DNA from: a virus
Length of the DNA stretch: 22,116 nt
Virus record (IMG/VR): IMGVR_UViG_3300031841_000673
Coordinates: 1-22,116 of that record
Reading direction: 5' to 3' (one strand)
Part shown: piece after piece, positions 331 to 19,159 of the stretch
Layout: the number at the start of each line of letters is the position of its first letter
Numbering within the stretch: position 1 is the first letter of the stretch
Notes under the pieces: model-generated
Databases searched by the model: none
The model's input: only the letters and a program-made list of their open reading frames with translations
What the model was told of the DNA's origin: nothing
Translations under genes and position numbers: made by a program

Positions 331-3300
331 TCACACCTCTAAAAGAGAAACGTTTTGTGCCAAGCCGCCGCTGTGACTCGTCCACTCCATGTCGTACATA
401 AAATTATAAGTGCCGCCAGCCGAGCTAACTGTTTGTGTTATTGAAAGCACTACTTCTGTGCCAGTAGCTGAGGCAATAGCAATGGTTGGATCACGAGTTG
501 TAATGTCACTGCTCAGTGCGTTTAACAAGCTTGTGCTTCCGTTCCAAAAAAGTCGGAAGGTTTTAGTTCCCGTACCAATGTCTACTCCGACATCATCTAA
601 AACATATTTTAAAGTCAAAAGACCATACATATTGCCGCTTTGACCTTTAATTTTTATAAAGTTTGTTGTTGTAGCACTAGCAATTGATGCCTTTTCAGCT
701 ACCAGCCTAACAGCAACGGCTCCCGCATTATCAGAGCAATAACGCTCTGCGCCGTTTGCATCAATGCTTAACCGTGGATTACCGTCACCATCTGACAAGA
801 CGATGTTGTTGTTTCCGGTGCGGATGTCGAGGCCGCCTTGGTTGCCGTTGTAGGCACCAAGAATGGTGTTCTTCGATCCAGTGGTAATTGCACTACCAGA
901 ATTTGCTCCAACAACAGTATTTATGTTTCCTGTCGTAGCCGCTCCAAGCGCTCCGTTTCCGATAGCAACGCAATCGTTTGCCGTCGTAAGCGCGTCACCC
1001 GTTTGATATCCCAAAAGGGTATTGGCGTAACCTGTAGTAATTGCCTGTCCAGCTTGCAAGCCTACGGCGACGTTGTAATAACCGGTGGTGTTTAGTCGAA
1101 GTGCTTGATAGCCAACGCCTGTGTTGTTTGAGCCTGTTGTAGTTTCAGTCAAAGACTCATAACCGACAGCCGTGTTCGCACCTGCCGTTGTATTTGCATC
1201 CAGTGCAAGAGCGCCTATTGCGACACTATTTGCACCTGTGGTGTTTGCAGTAAGCGACTGATAACCCACAGCGGTGTTGTTGTTGGCGGTGGTGTTTGAC
1301 TTTAGAGAAGCAACACCTACCGCTGTATTACTAGAGCCGGTTGTATTGAAACGTAATGCGCCGGCGTTTGTGCCATCAAAACCACCAATACCTACGTTAG
1401 ATGTGCCTGTAGTGTTAGCGGCTAGGACAAAAGAGCCTACAGCCGTCACAGTTCCGGTTGTATTGCCAAGTCCAGCCTGATACCCAACGGCTGTGTTGTT
1501 AGCCGCAGTGGTGTTTGCAGTAAGCGCCTCATAACCTACGGCAACGTTGCTGGATGCTGTAGTGTTTGAATCAAGAGCCGCCGCACCGACTGCTACATTA
1601 CTTCCACCGGTAGTGTTTGCCGCAAGAGCGTTGTTACCTACTGCAACGCTTGATGAGCCAGTAGTATTTGCATTCATTGCTGTTGTACCAACAGCCACGT
1701 TTGAGCTACCTGTTGAGTTATACAGCGCCTGTACACCAACACCTACGTTGTTTGATGCGGTAGTTGCAGTACCTACAGCGTTCACACCGATAGCTATGTT
1801 GTAGTTACCTGTAGTAATTGCATCACCTGCAAAAGCGCCTACTGCCGTGTTTTGTGTGCCTGTAGTATTTGCATTTAATGCAGTCTTACCAAACGCTGTG
1901 TTGTTGCTGGCCGTAGTGTTGGAACGTAAGGCTTGATGTCCCATTGCTGTGTTGCTACTACCTGTTGTATTTAAAGCAAGAGTTCCGACATCGACACCAT
2001 TAATACCAGATCCCACAGCTACGTTTGCAGTTCCAGTTGTATTAGATACTAAAGTACCATTACCGACAGCAGTATTATCAGAACCTGTGGTATTGCTACC
2101 TAAAGCATCTTTACCTATAGCTGTAACACCACTACCAGTAGTGTTTGCGTCTCCAGCTAGGGCACCAATAAAGGTATTGTTTGAGCCTGTGGTTGTATAT
2201 AAACCTGCGTAAAATCCCAAAGCAGTATTGTAGGCATTAGTGGCAGTAGTAAAGTTTTGAGTGTATAAAGCCGCCGTTCCAATAGCGGTGGATCTACTAC
2301 CTAATGTATCGGCGGTAAGAGCTAAGTTTCCTACTGCAACATTAAAATCGCCATCAGTGATAGCACGACCAGCCTGACTACCAACAAAAGTGTTTTCTTG
2401 ACCTGTCGTTAATGACCGACCAGCTTGATAACCAAGACCAGTATTTTCTGTGCCTGTAGTGTTTGCATACAGCGACTGATAACCAACTGCGGTGTTGTTG
2501 TTGGCGGTGGTGTTTGCATTAAGCGCCTGCCTACCTACCGCAGTGTTGCTTGCACCCGTCGTATTAGCTTTTAGGGTGTCGCTTCCAATCGCTACATTGT
2601 CATTCGCAGTGGTGTTGTTTTCTAGTGCGCCATAACCAAAAGCGTCGTTAGCCAAACCCGTAGTATTGTCTTGTAAAGCTAAATTACCTACTGCCGTGTT
2701 GTATGAGCCTGTAGTGTTGTAGGTTAACGCCAAACGACCTACACCAGTGTTAGCTGATCCAGTAGTGCTTCGGAATAACGTTTCGTGACCTACTGCGGTA
2801 TTTGAGAGACCTGACGTATTACCAGACAGCGCACGATAACCAACAGCAGTTAAGGCTCCTTGCGTAGTTATAGCGTCCAGCGCATAGTTGCCAACCGCTA
2901 CGTTTTCAGTCGCAGTTGTTGCGTTGTTCATTGCGACTGCGCCTACGGCAGTATTCAAGCCGCCAGTGCTAAGAGTTGCGCCAGTAGCATAGCCAATCAT
3001 TACGTTATTAGCGGCAGACGTTTGTGCTGTAGCCGCTTCATAGCCTATGGCAACGTTAAAGTTACCTGTCACAACAGCGTCAAGTGAGTAAGCGCCAAGA
3101 GCAGTGTTGTACTGGCCTGTTGTTAAGCCTCCGCCAGAGTTGTATCCAACGGCTGTGTTTAAAGCCGCTGTTGTAGATGCAGTAAGTGCACTTTGACCGA
3201 TAGCAACGTTTTGACCGCCAGTGGTGTTTGCGTATAGCGACAGATACCCAACAGCAGTGTTGTTGGAGGCGGTGGTGTTTGCTCCTAAAGCACTTCTACC

Positions 3301-4170
3301 AACGGCTGTGTTGTTACTACCCGAAGTATTTGCAAGCAAGGCACTATCACCTATTGCGGTGTTAAGTGCGCCAGTGGTGTTGGAATAAAAAGACTGATTA
3401 CCAAAAGCGGCGTTGTTATACCCCGTCTGGTTGCTATATCCGGCCTGATAGCCCACCGCCGTGTTGTTAGAGGCTGTGGTGTTTGAGTTAAGCGCCTGAC
3501 GGCCAATAGCTACGTTGTTTGAGCCTGTAGTGGTGCTGTATAACGCATTCAAACCCATTGCGGTGTTATTGCCACCTGTTGTATTGCTATAAGAAGCATT
3601 AACACCAACAGAGGTATTAGACGCGCCGGTAGTATTGGAATAAAGGGTTTGATGCCCTAAAGCTGTATTGTTATCTGCTGTGGTAGCGGCGGTTAAAGCA
3701 GTCGAGCCCAGTGCGACGTTTGCAGTGCCTGTAGTGTTTGCAAACAAAGCGCGATGTCCAACTGCCACGTTATTATTAGCCGTGGTATTATCAGTTAATG
3801 CTTGCATACCAACGGCGGTATTTTGAGTTCCAGAAGTATTTGCTTCGAGCGCGGCAAAGCCTAATGCGGTATTGGAAGATGCTGTGTTTGCCGTCAGCGC
3901 ATTAGCACCGATTGCTGTTGAATAATTACCTGATACAAGACTATCCAACGCAGTATTACCCAGCGCTACGTTGTCCGTACCAACAGGATAGTTACCATCC
4001 AGCTTGATTGTGCCGCCATCGACTGACAGGTTGCTTGAAATAGTAACCGCGCCAGTAAACGTAGCACCCGACAGTTCAGCCTTATCGGTGTTAAGGTTGG
4101 TGAAGTTAGCATCCACCTCGTTGTTAGTGAGAGGCGAACCCTTCCCAGAGCGTGTTGTAATCGTAGTCAT
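331..4170 (-). CDS. Giant tail fibre or adhesin with 61 YadA-head-like repeats
   Basis: This 1279-residue protein is probably a long side or tip fibre that contacts the host surface. Residues 1-66 form an N-terminal anchor beginning MTTITTRSGKGSPLTNNEVD, a start seen in many phage fibres. Residues 67-1121 are, by my count, 61 consecutive units of a 17-residue repeat with consensus NTAVGxxALxxNTTGxx. The conserved Asn, small and hydrophobic positions and invariant Gly resemble the left-handed beta-roll of trimeric autotransporter (YadA, Hia) heads. Four units carry insertions of 4 to 7 residues and three lack one residue. Residues 1122-1279 are a non-repeat C-terminal domain, a candidate receptor-binding or trimerisation head. 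The ATG follows a GAGG Shine-Dalgarno at 6 bases. A small chaperone gene follows directly. Structural role is sure from context; trimeric beta-roll fold is inference. Confidence 0.85.
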   Translation of the reverse strand: MTTITTRSGKGSPLTNNEVDANFTNLNTDKAELSGATFTGAVTISSNLSVDGGTIKLDGNYPVGTDNVALGNTALDSLVSGNYSTAIGANALTANTASSNTALGFAALEANTSGTQNTAVGMQALTDNTTANNNVAVGHRALFANTTGTANVALGSTALTAATTADNNTALGHQTLYSNTTGASNTSVGVNASYSNTTGGNNTAMGLNALYSTTTGSNNVAIGRQALNSNTTASNNTAVGYQAGYSNQTGYNNAAFGNQSFYSNTTGALNTAIGDSALLANTSGSNNTAVGRSALGANTTASNNTAVGYLSLYANTTGGQNVAIGQSALTASTTAALNTAVGYNSGGGLTTGQYNTALGAYSLDAVVTGNFNVAIGYEAATAQTSAANNVMIGYATGATLSTGGLNTAVGAVAMNNATTATENVAVGNYALDAITTQGALTAVGYRALSGNTSGLSNTAVGHETLFRSTTGSANTGVGRLALTYNTTGSYNTAVGNLALQDNTTGLANDAFGYGALENNTTANDNVAIGSDTLKANTTGASNTAVGRQALNANTTANNNTAVGYQSLYANTTGTENTGLGYQAGRSLTTGQENTFVGSQAGRAITDGDFNVAVGNLALTADTLGSRSTAIGTAALYTQNFTTATNAYNTALGFYAGLYTTTGSNNTFIGALAGDANTTGSGVTAIGKDALGSNTTGSDNTAVGNGTLVSNTTGTANVAVGSGINGVDVGTLALNTTGSSNTAMGHQALRSNTTASNNTAFGKTALNANTTGTQNTAVGAFAGDAITTGNYNIAIGVNAVGTATTASNNVGVGVQALYNSTGSSNVAVGTTAMNANTTGSSSVAVGNNALAANTTGGSNVAVGAAALDSNTTASSNVAVGYEALTANTTAANNTAVGYQAGLGNTTGTVTAVGSFVLAANTTGTSNVGIGGFDGTNAGALRFNTTGSSNTAVGVASLKSNTTANNNTAVGYQSLTANTTGANSVAIGALALDANTTAGANTAVGYESLTETTTGSNNTGVGYQALRLNTTGYYNVAVGLQAGQAITTGYANTLLGYQTGDALTTANDCVAIGNGALGAATTGNINTVVGANSGSAITTGSKNTILGAYNGNQGGLDIRTGNNNIVLSDGDGNPRLSIDANGAERYCSDNAGAVAVRLVAEKASIASATTTNFIKIKGQSGNMYGLLTLKYVLDDVGVDIGTGTKTFRLFWNGSTSLLNALSSDITTRDPTIAIASATGTEVVLSITQTVSSAGGTYNFMYDMEWTSHSGGLAQNVSLLEV
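808..3972 (-). repeat. 61 tandem 51-bp coding repeats (17 residues each)
   Basis: The coding repeat spans 3165 bases, equal to 1055 residues: 61 units of 17 residues, plus 21 inserted and minus 3 missing residues. Units are diverged at DNA level, but blocks recur. For example, a 46-base stretch at 1253-1298 matches 2471-2516 at 44 of 46 positions. Two units with the longest insertions (near 1340-1410 and 1955-2030) are each followed by similar unit series, which suggests block duplication of several units at a time. Confidence 0.9.
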
Positions 4171-9484: not shown

Positions 9485-9934
9485 TTACCTCACGCACTTA
9501 GCGTAAACACGCTCAATGTTCTCAAAGCCTTGACGCTCAAGAATGCGATCAAAAGGCTGATGAATTTTTGTATTAATGTTGATCTGTCGCACGCCCTCGC
9601 GCTCAAGACACTCCACCGCATATTTAATCAGTTTAATCCCGGTGAAGCCCTCACGCACGTCGGCTCTCAAAAATATGATGTCGTTGTTTGCAAAGATGTG
9701 ATCTTTGTAATGCAATGATGGGCCAACAATCAGCACAAAATAACCGAGCAACTCGCCACTCTTACGTGCTGTGTAAACACGCAACTTGCCAGCTGTATCA
9801 AGTGCAGCGTAAGCCTCCCAATCTGGGTTCAACTTGATGACATCTTGATTGAGCGCTATTTCTTCCCAATGCTCTTCAATGAGCGGCTTGATCTCATCTT
9901 TTACTTGGGTGAATGACTCGTGAGCAAATTCCAT
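9485..9934 (-). CDS. GNAT-family N-acetyltransferase-like protein
   Basis: This 149-residue protein has the length and strand/helix order of GNAT acetyltransferases, which move an acetyl group from acetyl-CoA to an amine. Visible are the central strands LLGYFVLIVGP and DIIFLRADVREGF, then a helix GIKLIKYAVECLEREG in the acetyl-CoA-binding position, and a C-terminal INTKIHQPFDRILERQGFE with the usual late FDRILERxGF element. The canonical Q/RxxGxG/A loop is not well matched; EGFTGIK occupies its place. The gene overlaps the upstream tail gene by TAATG and ends 3 bases before the tip protein gene, so it is embedded in the tail operon. The substrate is unknown. Modification of a virion protein or of a host protein are both possible. 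Confidence 0.7.
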   Translation of the reverse strand: MEFAHESFTQVKDEIKPLIEEHWEEIALNQDVIKLNPDWEAYAALDTAGKLRVYTARKSGELLGYFVLIVGPSLHYKDHIFANNDIIFLRADVREGFTGIKLIKYAVECLEREGVRQININTKIHQPFDRILERQGFENIERVYAKCVR

Positions 9935-10566
9935 TATCTATGCTGCCCACCATGTCGTTCATCGCCGCCACCGCCGCCTCCGCCGCCACCGCCGCCACTA
10001 CCGGCTTGAGTGCTGCCCCAAACAATTTCCTTTTCAGCCATTTCAGCGACAAACTCCAAGCCTTTATCATTTGGGTAATCAATCTTTTGATCCTCAGATG
10101 TGTAACGGCGTTGACGTGAACGCTCAAACTCAATCAGCCTGTTCTCAACAGTGACTTTGATGGTTGAGGTATCACCAGAATCGGTGATTGTCATCGTATC
10201 CATGAAGCCTGAAAAGATCACAAACGGATTGCTGATCAGCGAGTTACTTGAGTTCATAGTGCCAAGCAATATCTTTAGCTCGCGTCCTTGGTAATCCTCA
10301 TCACGCGCTTTAGACAATAGCGGCTCAGTCACGCCTGACAGTTGTACAGTTGCGCCGTTAGCCTGTAACTCTGTTGATTCTTTGATGCCGCTTACAGCCA
10401 GCAATGTTCCCGCGCCAACGTATGTGACGCTGCCAGCGGTTAAGCTACCGATGCCGCCCCAGAGATTAAGATTGCCAGAATCAAACGCGCACTGAACAAA
10501 AAGAACTGGGCGAACGACATCAGCCGATACCGCATTGGCAACCGCTGTTGGTAATCCGCGACTCAT
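9934..10566 (-). CDS. Distal tail protein with C-terminal polyglycine
   Basis: This 210-residue protein begins MSRGLPTAVANAVSADVVRP and contains FDSGNLNLWGGIGSL, ATVQLSGVTEPLLS, DEDYQGRELKILLG and TVENRLIEFERSRQRRYTSE. These motifs recur in a phage tail protein family encoded between the tape measure and the tip protein, in the lambda L neighbourhood. I believe it is a distal tail or hub component but cannot name the family with certainty. The C-terminus holds eleven consecutive glycines followed by DERHGGQHR. ATG at 10566 overlaps the TGA of the preceding gene (ATGA), and the stop overlaps the acetyltransferase start (TAATG), so translation is coupled on both sides. Confidence 0.75.
   Translation of the reverse strand: MSRGLPTAVANAVSADVVRPVLFVQCAFDSGNLNLWGGIGSLTAGSVTYVGAGTLLAVSGIKESTELQANGATVQLSGVTEPLLSKARDEDYQGRELKILLGTMNSSNSLISNPFVIFSGFMDTMTITDSGDTSTIKVTVENRLIEFERSRQRRYTSEDQKIDYPNDKGLEFVAEMAEKEIVWGSTQAGSGGGGGGGGGGGDERHGGQHR
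9964..9996 (-). repeat. GGC-rich 9-bp tandem repeat encoding polyglycine
   Basis: On the coding strand the 33 bases read as 9-base units GGCGGCGGT or GGCGGCGGA, 3.7 copies, encoding eleven glycines. The tract is a candidate for replication slippage. Gain or loss of whole units would change glycine number without shifting the frame. Confidence 0.85.
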
Positions 10567-12912: not shown

Positions 12913-13384
12913 TTTTTCGCTTCCTTTAATCTAAACCACGCAATCCAACCCAGATATTCCCTCATATCCATCGCTTCGATTTCGCCGACTGTTTTGCTTA
13001 GGGTTTCCGCTAAATGAAAACGGAATTGCAAGTCATAGTCGGTTTTTAGTTTCCCGCGACTTCATCCTCATCAGGATCGTTAGAGCTAATGTCGCCCACA
13101 ACACGAGCAAGCACATCAGGATCAACGTGGCGCATAAGTTCCGTCTTATCAGCTTTTCTGAAGATAGGCACGCCCTCTTCATCAATTAGACGATAAATCA
13201 GCGTCATTGCCATAGCCTCAGCAGTCTTACCGCCTTGACTAAGTTCAAGAATCTCGCCCATCTGTGCAAGATTGATCCCTGGCTTTACATAAGCCGTGGT
13301 TTCCCACTCAGGGATCTCAATCTTTGACGGGCTCGCGCTGAGAAGAGCCTTGTAGTGGCCCTTTGCCTTATCTAAGACACTCAT
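12909..13384 (-). CDS. GT: Tail assembly chaperone GT, made by -1 frameshift
   Basis: A -1 shift at 13049-13055 joins the 112-residue chaperone to 46 further residues, giving 158 residues in total. The extension is open from the slippery site to a TGA at 12909-12911 and contains TDYDLQFRFHLAETLSKTVG, EIEAMDMREYLGWIAWFRL and a KEAKK end. The pattern of a helix ending LSKTVGE and then REYxxWIAWFRL is typical of the T part of lambda-like GT chaperones. The TGA stop overlaps the tape measure ATG (ATGA), which strongly supports the reading frame as real. In lambda the GT protein binds the tape measure and recruits tube subunits. There is no independent start in the T frame with a good ribosome binding site. 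Confidence 0.85.
13046..13384 (-). CDS. G: Tail assembly chaperone G, unshifted product
   Basis: This 112-residue protein is the zero-frame product of the G/GT gene. It contains IEIPEWETTAYVKPG, a common start pattern of these chaperones, a central helical part with AQMGEILELSQGGKTAEAMA and LIYRLIDEEGVPIFRKAD, and an acidic end (DPDEDEVAGN). It lies between the tail tube and tape measure genes, the conserved place for this chaperone. The ATG is 3 bases after the tube protein stop (TAACGCATG) with no good Shine-Dalgarno, so translation probably depends on coupling to the tube gene. The slippery site is the last two sense codons. Confidence 0.85.
   Translation of the reverse strand: MSVLDKAKGHYKALLSASPSKIEIPEWETTAYVKPGINLAQMGEILELSQGGKTAEAMAMTLIYRLIDEEGVPIFRKADKTELMRHVDPDVLARVVGDISSNDPDEDEVAGN
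13049..13055 (-). other. Slippery heptamer for programmed -1 frameshift
   Basis: The coding strand reads G GGA AAC in the zero frame, directly followed by TAA. This fits the X XXY YYZ rule and is one base from lambda's G/T site GGGAAAG. After slippage the frame continues CTA AAA ACC and stays open for 46 codons. Confidence 0.85.
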
Positions 13385-14952: not shown

Positions 14953-16185
14953 TTAGCCGTCGTTACCGAATGCGAAGCTAACCGCGTGGCGTACTGCCAC
15001 ATCTACAGACTGAAGCGCTACAACGCGAACAGTGCCGCTAGTGCTGTTGGTGTATGGATCAACAACGATGTCGAGTCCACCGAACATACCAACAAGCAAA
15101 TCAGCAAAGTTACCGAAGTAGAGGTTTCCAGCTGTACACTGGTTAGAAACGATGCCACGGTAGCCGTTGATTGAACCGCCAGGCTCAACAACGAACTGAG
15201 CAGTGCCAGACGCTTTCTCAGTTGTCTTCAGAGCGCCGTACATAGAAGCTGGCAAGATATATGCCAAGTTTCCAGTAAGAGCGTTGTCTTCAGCAACCGC
15301 AGTTTCCAGAGTTACAACTTCAGCGAAGGTTGGGTTAGCAGCCGCGAAAGCAGTCACAGTGTTGACACCAGAGGTGTTCAAGATGCCTGTGGGCTGTCCG
15401 CTTGAGCCAGAACCTTCAAGACCAGCCAAGTCAATCGCAGTTGCGATAGCTTGAGCCAAGTCATCACGCATCATTGCCTCAACATCCATTGAAGATTGGA
15501 TGAGCAGCTGACGTGTTACGTCAGTGTGCGCGCCGAGTGTCTTAGGTGTCATTGAAACCTGTCCAACAACCATTTCTGATTCAGCCGATGCACCGCCTTC
15601 AGTAGCGATCCAACCCGCTGAAGCAGCAGTTGTTTTCTTAGGAATCTTAACGTCACCAGAAAGGCCACCGAGCATACGTGCGCCCGCTTGCATTACAGAT
15701 GAAGCGTTGCGGAGTACGTCGATGAACTCACCACCACGGAAGTCGTCAGTAAACAACTCTGCCTCATCCGCTGAGTTTAGATCGCGAGTCCAGTTACGCA
15801 GAACGTCAGCTGGGAGCATGATGCCCTGCGCTGATTTGCCATACTGATCAGCAGCGGCGCGTGAACATTCAAATTCAAACGCAGCGGCTTCCTGAGCGCG
15901 TCGATCAGTTGGGTTTGCCATAGCGTGTACAGCGCGAACAAGTGAAAAGCGTTGTGCTTCTTTCTTGTTCAAGCCGATTTCTTGGCTTTCCAATGAACGA
16001 TCAGAGCCAATCACTTCAAGCAACTCGCCACGAAACTCTTCGATAGACTTGCCTTCTGAGATTGCACGCTGTGCGAGATCAGATTTGCTGTGACGTGCGC
16101 CAAGCTCAACAATTTGAGCGGCGTTCTTTTGGGCGGCTTTACGAGCATCTGCTTCGACTGCCGCGATATCAATTGATTCTGACAT
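14953..16185 (-). CDS. Major capsid protein from an internal start
   Basis: An in-frame ATG at 16185 (Met504 of the fusion) has AAGGAGA 5 bases upstream, better than the site of the full-length frame. It would give a 410-residue HK97-fold capsid protein. The start MSESIDIAAVEADARKAAQK opens a charged helical region (to about 150) that looks like the scaffolding delta domain removed on maturation. The shell part includes AGWIATEGGASAESE, LGAHTDVTRQLLIQSSMDVE, LEGSGSSGQPTGILNTSG and a C-terminal VRVVALQSVDVAVRHAVSFA. Separate capsid translation would supply hundreds of copies while the fusion gives only a few protease copies. Whether both products exist is not shown by the sequence alone. Confidence 0.75.
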   Translation of the reverse strand: MSESIDIAAVEADARKAAQKNAAQIVELGARHSKSDLAQRAISEGKSIEEFRGELLEVIGSDRSLESQEIGLNKKEAQRFSLVRAVHAMANPTDRRAQEAAAFEFECSRAAADQYGKSAQGIMLPADVLRNWTRDLNSADEAELFTDDFRGGEFIDVLRNASSVMQAGARMLGGLSGDVKIPKKTTAASAGWIATEGGASAESEMVVGQVSMTPKTLGAHTDVTRQLLIQSSMDVEAMMRDDLAQAIATAIDLAGLEGSGSSGQPTGILNTSGVNTVTAFAAANPTFAEVVTLETAVAEDNALTGNLAYILPASMYGALKTTEKASGTAQFVVEPGGSINGYRGIVSNQCTAGNLYFGNFADLLVGMFGGLDIVVDPYTNSTSGTVRVVALQSVDVAVRHAVSFAFGNDG

Positions 16186-17694
16186 GGGTATCTCCTTAAA
16201 GTCAGTTTTAATCACGGGTTGAGATGAAGCAGAGCCTGATCGCCCAACCCCTACGGAGGCATCCGCAGGAATTGAAACCAAACTTGCCTCGACTGGACGC
16301 CAAGACTTAGCCACATAAGTGTCCTTGTCTTTTCTTTCCAGTTTGTTGATGGCGTAACCAATGGACACGTTAGCCTTGATCCCATCAACTACATCGTCGA
16401 AAGCCTCTCTAGCAAGTGCGCCTTTGCCAAAACGCACCGTCGCACGGAGCCGCCGTGCCGAGCCGTCGAGATCGACAGATTCCACAACGCCAATTTGTCT
16501 TTCTGGATCGTGATCCAAAAGAAGCGGGGCGCGTCCGCTGTTCAAGAAACTCAGATCAATTGCTTCTTCTGAGTGTTCTAATACTTCCATTCCGAATGAG
16601 CGCTGTACTGGCTCTTCAGAACTCACAGCCATCTTTACGCGGCGCGACTCCTCATCAACCGCCTTTGCTGAAAGTTCCATTGCACGATGAGTAATCTCAA
16701 CACTGCCTTTGCGTTCTTCCGCTTCCTCTTCTTCAGCATCATCTTCAGACTTGCCGAACTCGATAATCACTGAATCAGCAGTTTCAGTTACATTCTTGAT
16801 ATGACGCTCTTCTTCATCATATCCACGGATAGGATCAATCTTAGTCAGCGTCGAAAAGCGGTGGCCTACTCGCACATCACTCTCGTTACCTTCGCTGTCA
16901 TAGACGCGAATCAACGCCGCAGGATCTTCCTCAGTACCGTTCACAGTAAAGTCTGAATCAGGCACATTGATTGATCCATCACGCTCAATGCGCTCGATCT
17001 TTCCTCTCGCTCTGCCACCGGATGAATTCCAGCTTACAAAGTCGCCAACTGATAACTCATCTGGCTCTGCGCGTTTTTCTGTTTCCATTGCACGTTCCTC
17101 AATGGCCGGTTCAAATTCCAAAACTTCCCAGTTATTTTCACGCAACCATTCGCGCGCTTCATCCTCTGAGAACTGTGACGAATCAAAGCGTATCGACTGA
17201 ATCTCTGTTTCGCCGTCTTTATAACCAACGATTATATCAATTCCCTCACCAAGTTCATCATTTATGCGTCTGAACTGTTCGTATTGGCCAGGCTCTCTGA
17301 TTCTCGCCGCGTGTTCATTGGGGTATGGACGCTTATCCTCGTAAGCGCGCTCATCTAGTGAATTGAGTCTTTGCGTGATTCTGTTTGCCCAAGACTCTCC
17401 AGCATCTCCTCCCCAAAGCTCCCAAGCAATTCGTCCTGCGCTGGGGAATCCTTCCTCTCCACTACTGAATCCTTCTGCCTGTTTATCGACAGTGTGTCGC
17501 GCAAAATAGCTATACATACGCCGAACAGTATTGATACTGAGATCGCGACGGTTAATGAGATCACGAGCGCGAGCGACGCCAACCTCAGTACCGCCACGCC
17601 CAAATTCCTCACGCCACTCCAAACCGCGTTTAGCATTGTTTGCCATCGCCTCCGTTGGTTTTGTATTTATTTCCTCGCCCTTATACGTCGCCAT
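14953..17694 (-). CDS. Prohead protease - major capsid protein fusion with extra N-terminal domains
   Basis: This 913-residue polyprotein has several parts. Residues 10-115 form a helical domain (NNAKRGLEWREEFGRGGTEV, later SAGRIAWELWGGDAGESW) known at the front of some phage head proteins. Residues 165-195 carry IRFDSSQFSEDEAREWLREN, as in XkdF-type proteins. Residues 214-287 (VGDFVSWNSSGGRARGKIER) match the Tudor-like DUF2945 pattern. Residues 335-485 are an HK97-type prohead protease with likely catalytic His395 (LLLDHDPE) and Ser444 (NVSIGYAI). Residues 504-913 are an HK97-fold capsid protein. A GAGG site precedes the ATG, which overlaps the portal gene end by 14 bases. Inference: the protease cuts the fusion during maturation. 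A possible further start at Met203 (17088), behind a GAGG, is weaker evidence. Confidence 0.9.
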   Translation of the reverse strand: MATYKGEEINTKPTEAMANNAKRGLEWREEFGRGGTEVGVARARDLINRRDLSINTVRRMYSYFARHTVDKQAEGFSSGEEGFPSAGRIAWELWGGDAGESWANRITQRLNSLDERAYEDKRPYPNEHAARIREPGQYEQFRRINDELGEGIDIIVGYKDGETEIQSIRFDSSQFSEDEAREWLRENNWEVLEFEPAIEERAMETEKRAEPDELSVGDFVSWNSSGGRARGKIERIERDGSINVPDSDFTVNGTEEDPAALIRVYDSEGNESDVRVGHRFSTLTKIDPIRGYDEEERHIKNVTETADSVIIEFGKSEDDAEEEEAEERKGSVEITHRAMELSAKAVDEESRRVKMAVSSEEPVQRSFGMEVLEHSEEAIDLSFLNSGRAPLLLDHDPERQIGVVESVDLDGSARRLRATVRFGKGALAREAFDDVVDGIKANVSIGYAINKLERKDKDTYVAKSWRPVEASLVSIPADASVGVGRSGSASSQPVIKTDFKEIPMSESIDIAAVEADARKAAQKNAAQIVELGARHSKSDLAQRAISEGKSIEEFRGELLEVIGSDRSLESQEIGLNKKEAQRFSLVRAVHAMANPTDRRAQEAAAFEFECSRAAADQYGKSAQGIMLPADVLRNWTRDLNSADEAELFTDDFRGGEFIDVLRNASSVMQAGARMLGGLSGDVKIPKKTTAASAGWIATEGGASAESEMVVGQVSMTPKTLGAHTDVTRQLLIQSSMDVEAMMRDDLAQAIATAIDLAGLEGSGSSGQPTGILNTSGVNTVTAFAAANPTFAEVVTLETAVAEDNALTGNLAYILPASMYGALKTTEKASGTAQFVVEPGGSINGYRGIVSNQCTAGNLYFGNFADLLVGMFGGLDIVVDPYTNSTSGTVRVVALQSVDVAVRHAVSFAFGNDG
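16191..16197 (-). promoter_or_regulatory. Internal ribosome binding site for the capsid protein
   Basis: The coding strand reads AAGGAGA, then TACCC, then ATG at 16185. This strong site lies within the protease-capsid fusion gene, at the protein boundary between the protease and the capsid delta domain. Confidence 0.8.
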
Positions 17695-19159
17695 CAGTCA
17701 CCTCGGGAACCACCGGCATCATCATCGCCGCGTAAGGCTCAAGCGCATATTTAACGCCAAACTGCTCCATCAAGCTCTTATCGCGCTGTATCTCAGCAAG
17801 TAGCTCTTCAGTGTCTTTCCCGTACTGGCTCGCCACGTCTTGCAGACTGAGAACGCCAGCCTTCATTCCGTTGATAGCCGCATTCATTTCTTTCTGTGGA
17901 TCAACCCAATTCCACGCACGGCCTCGGAACTCAGCAGCGCCTTTAAACTTATCAAGGGTGGACAGCGGCAAACGCACGCCCTGCACCTCAAGTGCCGACT
18001 CAAGCCACGCCTCAAACACGGGGCGTACAAAGTGATCAATCATGAATTGCTGAAGGTTGCGATAATAATCACGTTCCTCAAGCGCACCCTGGCGAATAGA
18101 GCTATAAGACGTAGCCTCAAGATCGTTAGCCAGTGACGTATATGAAACATTAAGCGCCGACGCGATGCCCTTTAGCACCGACTTGTGGAAGCTGTCGAAT
18201 TCGCTGTTGGGGTATTGCGGATCAAACGTCTTGAAATCGACGCCGTTTGGCAGTTGGTGGAAAGTGCCAGGCTGTGCATCAATGATTGGCACGTTGCCAT
18301 CAAGCTCATCCGCGACAAAGCCGTCACCTGATGGACTCGTAAAGAATCCCATCTTTGATGCGCCCATACGCGCAGCGACAATTGATGCCTCACGCCAGCC
18401 GTTTAGCTGTTTGAGCGATGCCATTGCTGGGGCCATCCACGGCTCACCGCGAGTTTGTCCGGGGCGCAAAGGCTGAAATATATGAATAACGCGATCAGCA
18501 GGGATGCGACGATGCTTAGGAGAGCGTGTCTGCGTCGTAAAATCGTAATCACCGGGGTGATATGTGAGCAAATGATACGCGATAGGCTTGCGGAACTTAT
18601 CCAGTTCGACACCCATACGAATCTCATTGCCATTCGACAATCTCTCAGACTTTTCTTCATCTACCTGATCAGGCTCTATAAATTCCAACGCAAACGAGTC
18701 ATGAAAGTCGTTTCCGCGATGCTTGATGATGAAAACCTCACCATCACGCGCCAGACTCTCAATAACCATCTTCTGCACGTCAATCCAAGACATCTTCCCG
18801 TCCGCCGTGCAGTTCCCCTTGCGCCCCCAAGCCTTAAAACCCTGTTCAACAGCACTGTTCCCTGGCTGATCTAAAGCACCAGCGGGATCGAGTGCTTTGA
18901 CTTGTAGCTTTACACCGTACTGCCCAACGGTATTTGTCTTGAGAAGCGACAAATAACGCTTGGCGTACTCGTTGTTACGCGCCAGATCCCGTGATCTTGC
19001 ACGCATACGCGATATGACTGGATAAAGCTCGCTATCAGCAGAGCGCTCTGACTCTCGATAATCAGCAAACAAACGGCCTGTATTAGCCGCTGAATACGCT
19101 CTTTTGAAAGTCTTGTTCTTTGTATCAGGTTTAGATTTCAAAAAATCGAACAGAGCCAT
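17681..19159 (-). CDS. B: Portal protein, lambda gpB family
   Basis: This 492-residue protein forms the DNA entry ring of the head. The start MALFDFLKSKPDTKNKTFKR leads into SELYPVISRMRARSRDLARN and KRYLSLLKTNTVGQYGVKLQ, the conserved front of lambda-type portals. Further marks are ESLARDGEVFIIKH, ALEFIEPDQVDEE, the IHIFQPLRPGQTRGEPWMAP segment and LSTLDKFKGAAEF. It is near the length of lambda gpB (533). The ATG directly follows the TAA of the gpW-position gene and has GAGG 6 bases upstream. The 3 prime end overlaps the protease-capsid start by 14 bases. Confidence 0.92.
   Translation of the reverse strand: MALFDFLKSKPDTKNKTFKRAYSAANTGRLFADYRESERSADSELYPVISRMRARSRDLARNNEYAKRYLSLLKTNTVGQYGVKLQVKALDPAGALDQPGNSAVEQGFKAWGRKGNCTADGKMSWIDVQKMVIESLARDGEVFIIKHRGNDFHDSFALEFIEPDQVDEEKSERLSNGNEIRMGVELDKFRKPIAYHLLTYHPGDYDFTTQTRSPKHRRIPADRVIHIFQPLRPGQTRGEPWMAPAMASLKQLNGWREASIVAARMGASKMGFFTSPSGDGFVADELDGNVPIIDAQPGTFHQLPNGVDFKTFDPQYPNSEFDSFHKSVLKGIASALNVSYTSLANDLEATSYSSIRQGALEERDYYRNLQQFMIDHFVRPVFEAWLESALEVQGVRLPLSTLDKFKGAAEFRGRAWNWVDPQKEMNAAINGMKAGVLSLQDVASQYGKDTEELLAEIQRDKSLMEQFGVKYALEPYAAMMMPVVPEVTDGDV

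Follow-up and report, generated by a model that had tools for sequence, protein, structure and literature searches.

The 22,116-nucleotide stretch of viral DNA analysed here (the window; positions 1 to 22,116 of the IMG/VR record IMGVR_UViG_3300031841_000673) carries a single open reading frame (ORF) of 913 codons plus a stop on its minus strand, at 14953-17694, in which a head protease of the HK97 type runs without interruption into a capsid protein. We propose that this one frame gives at least two products, an abundant capsid precursor of 410 amino acids (aa) that would be initiated internally at Met504, and a scarcer full-length fusion; we put the probability of this reading at roughly 0.8. 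The initial annotation of this DNA gave no strand, rightly saw one frame and called it a polyprotein. To judge from the sequence, there is a conserved internal capsid start at the protease-capsid joint, which that annotation does not mention, and the polyprotein label is probably half the story. The argument turns on the following sites.

14953..17694, minus strand: whole open frame (front modules, S78 protease and HK97-type capsid precursor), 913 aa.
17698..17704, minus strand: Shine-Dalgarno (SD) sequence GAGGTGA of the annotated start, serving the ATG at 17692-17694.
16183..16197, minus strand: internal ribosome-binding site and start, made up of AAGGAG at 16192-16197, a 6-nucleotide spacer and the ATG at 16183-16185, which is Met504.

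The DNA at the joint reads TTTAAGGAGATACCC-ATG, a ribosome-binding site followed by the Met504 codon. No other start codon within the ORF has an SD pairing as strong as its -9.2 kcal/mol, the next being Met203 at -6.2. Just two of the 21 listed ORFs, the major tail protein (-11.8) and one more (-10.2), have a start that outscores Met504; the annotated start scores -7.2. The combination of AAGGAG, a 6-nucleotide spacer and ATG occurs once in the window, counting both strands, where 0.16 occurrences are expected.

This site is conserved among relatives. In an alignment of 113 distinct rows, which include the window and from which 30 duplicate loci were dropped, Met504 is a methionine in 110. Two of the three remaining rows (L132 and L133) carry an ATG with GAGGT upstream about 10 residues further on, and the third (L112) starts after the site. 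The peptide preceding Met504 varies, with 43 distinct 8-mers; among relatives it reads FKEIP, FKEDK, REETP, AQEQI, NMEKT, IEVNL and others, and despite these changes an SD-like word is kept in front of the methionine, in different codon phases. The mean SD score at this column is -7.42, compared with -2.04 for 2172 other in-frame ATGs; of the 21 methionine columns kept in at least half of the rows, 504 ranks first, followed by 203, 319 and the annotated start. When the 43 distinct peptides are compared with a synonymous null, the observed mean is -7.48 versus -4.89 (paired test, p 1e-10, the sequences being related). Codon choice shows the same preference at codon -4, where glutamate is encoded by GAG in 25 of 25 cases versus 44% elsewhere, though at codon -3 the figure is 17 of 34.

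Synonymous variation is also lowest at the joint. The first scan was redone with an expectation calculated per pair, because identical residues from closer pairs could bias fast-changing linkers; with this normalisation the lowest value among 841 windows belongs to the one that begins at residue 502, and the second lowest to the one that begins at 496. The rerun kept the joint signal for the family of the window and for that of phage PAJU2, gave a middling one for the S1 family and none for the KA2-1 and phiHAP-1 families. By sequence, Met504 is thus a conserved candidate for an in-frame internal start with a ribosome-binding site, as in a nested gene pair of the lambda C/Nu3 kind.

The same signature recurs in the PAJU2 family, and parts of it in three others. 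The joint of the PAJU2 gene reads CAGGAGGGCAACGAC-ATG (SD -10.8), a methionine is present there in 66 of 68 ORFs of the family with a mean SD of -9.55, and the joint holds the two windows of lowest synonymous variation (ranks 1-2 of 660). Genes of the S1 type, whose capsid belongs to a different family (PF25209), mostly have a strong SD and an ATG at the joint within varied sequence, with a best rank for synonymous constraint of 17 of 649. Among cultured phages, 14 of the 19 examined have a joint ATG with an SD of -5.5 or below. Dinoroseobacter phage R4C carries the same kind of fusion, with an SD of -9.5 at its Met189. Across five families, 125 of 214 distinct ORFs have their strongest-SD in-frame ATG inside the joint interval, versus 41.4 expected, identical joint regions being counted once and truncated ORFs dropped; since the sequences are related, this figure is not a probability.

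Several observations weigh against an internal start, or against its generality. The synonymous shuffle is significant singly in only 1 of the 43 peptides, because lysine and glutamate codons favour SD-like words. One of the peptide patterns used to find relatives contained the site itself (TDFKEIPM); a second scan for loci, in which none of the patterns came from the site, gave the same picture at Met504. The S1 family has exceptions without a strong SD (L326, L329, L331, L332, L334-L336, L361, L363 and L374 among them). The KA2-1 and phiHAP-1 families keep the methionine (22 of 23 and 15 of 16) with a moderate SD and no synonymous constraint. Five of the 19 cultured phages (S-CBS3, S-LBS1, FoX2, Mica and MQ-4) have a joint ATG with a weak SD, another in-frame ATG outscores the joint ATG in KA2-1, PT1, RcSaxon, S1 and Bas97, and in Nocturne116 another one ties with it. 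The scan made with Nocturne116 returned one locus.

The two halves that meet at Met504 can be assigned as follows.

16225..16677, minus strand: S78 (HK97-type) prohead protease, residues 340-490, from Pfam, PHROG and alignment.
15769..16185, minus strand: delta or scaffold-like region of the nested precursor, residues 504-642, predicted with low to moderate confidence to be partly helical; its end is taken from the deposited R4C chain.
14956..15768, minus strand: predicted mature HK97-fold capsid protein, residues 643-913, from Pfam and the R4C chain match.

Both the protease and the full capsid protein named in the initial annotation are present in the frame. Peptidase_S78 (PF04586) matches residues 377-479 with 22.6 bits, above the cut-off of 21, and the columns of candidate His395 (LLLDH) and Ser444 (NVSIGY), which we take to be catalytic, hold histidine and serine in 14 of 14 aligned proteins. 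Phage_capsid (PF05065) matches residues 656-911, most of the domain, at E 4e-43, and PHROG 617 (major head protein) covers residues 336-911. The structural model of the capsid part is poor (mean predicted local distance difference test score, pLDDT, 45.6). The product from Met504 would have 410 aa; the profile TIGR01554 has 385 positions, of which position 100 falls at residue 622, and HK97 gp5 has about 385 aa. The frame from Met504 has the size of an HK97-type precursor. The deposited capsid chain of R4C (8gta) matches at E 1.8e-62. It consists of the C-terminal 268 residues of a 629-aa gene product (L376, 502-2391) and begins near R4C residue 362, which corresponds to a position near residue 643 here; we infer the end point of the mature capsid from this chain with caution, because the chain may be only the modelled part. 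The R4C capsid protein is described as vBDshSR4C_006, present in 415 copies, and the words 'protease' and 'cleav' are absent from the portion of the paper's text considered here (PMC10276861).

From this arrangement we infer a scheme of initiation, product ratio, co-assembly and cleavage. Initiation at 17694 would give the 913-aa fusion, in which a helical module (N1), an alpha/beta module (X), a Tudor domain, the S78 protease, the delta region and the HK97-type capsid follow one another. Initiation at Met504 (window position 16185) would give a 410-aa protein of delta region plus capsid, a normal-sized HK97-type precursor. Of the two ribosome-binding sites the internal one is the stronger, so most of the output should be the plain capsid precursor, and the ratio of the two would be set by internal initiation. 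The fusion, as a minor subunit, would co-assemble by means of its capsid part and thereby place the protease inside the prohead, where the protease would then cut off the delta regions and itself. This mode of entry would make separate targeting unnecessary, and the front modules, as optional cargo of the protease-bearing form, could be lost.

The number of products may be higher than two. A second candidate internal start lies upstream of the Tudor domain.

17095..17100, minus strand: GAGGAA, an SD-like sequence before Met203 (ATG at 17086-17088), with a 711-aa product.

Such a start would add a Tudor-protease-capsid product that lacks N1 and X, for at least three nested products in all, and would be compatible with initiation at Met504. 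The Met203 column has a mean SD of -6.86, second of the 21 conserved methionine columns, and its glutamate at codon -4 is GAG in 14 of 16 cases versus 46%. In relatives that lack N1 and X (L037, L060, L106 and L140), the first good start is the ATG homologous to Met203; in L140 this ATG is separated from the SD by a stop codon. Against this, the column holds a methionine in only 39 of 71 rows, and synonymous variation at Met203 is not reduced (observed-to-expected ratio 1.16-1.26). The chances of a third product are thus close to balanced, leaning slightly towards its absence. One subclade (most of L019-L028, with L041, L095, L096 and L098) has a strong SD and an ATG just before the protease (EEERS-M, down to -12.0, and SEEPE-M, about -8.4). 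The sequence suggests that in this subclade the protease may have a start of its own.

The front of the protein comprises four elements.

17338..17694, minus strand: module N1, residues 1-119, helical, from phrog_2859 (unknown function) and the predicted model.
17110..17316, minus strand: module X, residues 127-195, a small alpha/beta unit with the RFDSSQF segment, from the predicted model and a sub-threshold BRX match.
16825..17076, minus strand: Tudor-like domain (Hva1_TUDOR, DUF2945), residues 207-290, from Pfam, the predicted model and structure alignment.
16681..16809, minus strand: acidic linker, residues 296-338, low-confidence in the predicted model and probably disordered.

An AlphaFold model of residues 1-290 is mostly confident, with the N1 helices at 15-119, the X alpha/beta unit at 127-195 and a barrel at about 217-290; the helical front domain of the initial annotation is therefore recovered, and phrog_2859 covers its residues 11-117. 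Hva1_TUDOR (PF11160, formerly DUF2945) matches residues 217-263 with 30.1 bits, above the Pfam cut-off of 24.1. The barrel aligns to the Tudor domains of SETDB1 (Z 7.7) and of Cryptococcus neoformans CNAG_02591 (4p5n; Z 6.2, 27% identity), which we take to be an Hva1 protein. A Z score under 8 is weak by itself, and the Tudor identity is convincing because the Pfam match joins it; the DUF2945 call thus stands. The label 'XkdF-like', given earlier to the RFDSSQF segment, was dropped as unproven, as XkdF (PF14550) is absent from the Pfam matches of the 913-aa protein listed to E 10. The sole Pfam match of this segment is BRX, just below threshold (24.1 bits versus 24.5). Several proteins annotated as XkdF appear among the viral structure matches of the full model, in a listing that does not show which module matched, together with many prohead proteases and portal proteins. 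Neither a sequence profile search with the front modules nor a Foldseek comparison of their model with the PDB (at E 0.001) returned a solved relative; matches of the Tudor barrel filled a second structure comparison, which therefore hardly covered N1 and X.

Module content was counted by BLASTP in the best 80 relatives, a set biased by search patterns drawn from these regions. N1 is found in 69, X in 16 and the Tudor domain in 28 (partial in L031 and L068). The N-terminal part is in the same frame in those 69, which rules out a misread separate gene; of the 11 without it, 6 begin at a contig edge. Relatives without the front modules include L036, L037, L060, L106 and L140. A further module, DUF5824 (PF19141), is present in 16 of 48 aligned relatives, lying between N1 and the protease in L029, L033, L038, L050 and others. 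The front domains are present as first described, and are less unusual than was claimed. Roseobacter phage CRP-811 has the order Tudor-S78-capsid in one 816-aa protein, and Nodularia phages have Tudor and N1 within a 'minor head protein'. Together with the relatives and the viral structure matches, CRP-811 rules out a Tudor fusion unique to this phage. In one of the Nodularia phages, kac65v151, this protein (gp017; L160, 2680-4281) joins Tudor and N1 to a pyrophosphatase-like domain (PF18823, E 1.3e-32). N1 or Tudor is also present in two haloviral proteins, a prohead protease and a head morphogenesis protein, and in PaBG in a free protein of 110 aa. To judge from the sequences, the modules at the front are exchangeable, and the Tudor domain among them is real and not singular. 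The probable ligand of the barrel, suggested with low confidence, is nucleic acid or a partner protein in the interior of the prohead.

It is tempting to speculate that N1, X or Tudor steers the protease by binding portal, DNA or scaffold and so localises the fusion, an idea that goes back to the initial annotation. In its favour, N1 is also present in annotated portal, head morphogenesis and prohead protease proteins. Several relatives lack N1, X and Tudor, so these modules are optional and not needed for protease inclusion, and in PaBG N1 stands alone and adjoins DNA genes. Steering by the front modules is thus unlikely.

A true polyprotein, in which only the 913-aa protein is made and cleaved to equal numbers of protease and capsid with the internal site unused, is the published view for PAJU2 as quoted in PMC8306868. 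Protease and capsid do share one frame here, as in a polyprotein of the PAJU2 kind, and nearly all relatives keep this frame continuous. However, equal cleavage leaves unexplained why a ribosome-binding site is kept at the joint while the peptide changes, and why synonymous variation is lowest there in two families. It also needs one protease and all front modules for every shell subunit, of which R4C has 415 (PMC10276861). The internal start argues against capsid release solely by cleavage of the fusion, and we regard equal cleavage as improbable. It is very improbable that the site is the unused relic of adjacent protease and capsid genes fused by loss of a stop: such a history could explain part of the joint signal, to the detriment of an internal start, and modules do join at start sites, as the Met203-type site in relatives without N1 and X indicates, but a relic should decay, whereas the Met504 site survives under synonymous constraint in relatives whose capsid parts are 71-100% identical, with the upstream peptides replaced.

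The portal gene overlaps the start of the ORF by 14 nucleotides, and head-tail joining, terminase and tail genes are further neighbours, which places the ORF in the head region of a tailed phage. The closest cultured relative seen is CRP-811, with 64% identity across the 577-aa protease-capsid part. The source would be a marine phage, with a marine alphaproteobacterial host. One relative found in a genome scan (L299, contig JABJFP010000292.1, 74% identity in the best segment) sits in a metagenome-assembled genome labelled Euryarchaeota, and is probably a mis-binned phage contig. Elsewhere on the minus strand, 331-4170 encodes a 1279-aa protein of short NTTG..NTAVG repeats, which has no Pfam match; PHROG families of virion structural and tail spike proteins each match it in 10-13 stretches. 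A 210-aa tail-region ORF (9934-10566), also without a Pfam match, ends in some 11 consecutive glycines followed by a few last residues, and directly adjoins the next ORF. A 112-aa ORF (13046-13384) occupies the position of a tail assembly chaperone; at this place the gene of RcSaxon is in two pieces.

The assembly question touched on here is by what means a tailed phage encloses the correct number of proteases in its prohead. If the joint is an internal start, two ribosome-binding sites within a single frame would fix the protease copy number, which could then be read from sequence. We consider it somewhat probable that this holds as a general rule: protease-capsid 'fusions' of tailed phages would be overlapping in-frame gene pairs in at least two capsid families (PF05065 and PF25209), a selected ribosome-binding site at the joint making the bulk capsid precursor and the fusion serving as a minor, self-targeting protease subunit, a phage counterpart of Gag/Gag-Pol. 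Many phage annotations would then be corrected, since a 'major capsid protein' entered at 600-900 aa would have a precursor of about 400 aa, and such genes would offer a ready natural system for loading cargo into shells by fusion.

Protease-capsid fusions as such are already known, to go by passages in PMC6563490 and PMC8306868, the second of which calls the PAJU2 gene a 'capsid polyprotein'. Those of PHROG 617, NCBIfam NF045541 and PAJU2 likewise join an S78 protease to an HK97-type capsid in one frame and are known as fusion or polyprotein; the point added here is the probable internal capsid start. No description of such a start at the protease-capsid joint was found in the open full-text literature, which leaves out most subscription journals. 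What appears to be new is the combination, at the capsid joint, of a nested in-frame start with a protease-capsid fusion, each of which is known alone. The Tudor module has the same profile and fold as Hva1_TUDOR/DUF2945 (PF11160), and here is part of a head protease and not a small free protein. HK97 itself has the S78 protease, delta region and capsid fold in two separate genes, gp4 and gp5, in contrast to the one frame here. Phage lambda C/Nu3 uses nested in-frame starts in a protease fusion, and is similar in having the nested start at a module joint, so that a protease-bearing minor form is made beside a major one; its nested product is a scaffold, whereas here it would be the actual capsid protein together with the delta region. 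In retroviral Gag/Gag-Pol, a few copies of the shell protein carry the protease into the particle. The likeness lies in these few protease-bearing copies, with no homology claimed; the retroviral ratio is set by frameshift or readthrough, whereas here it would be set by internal initiation.

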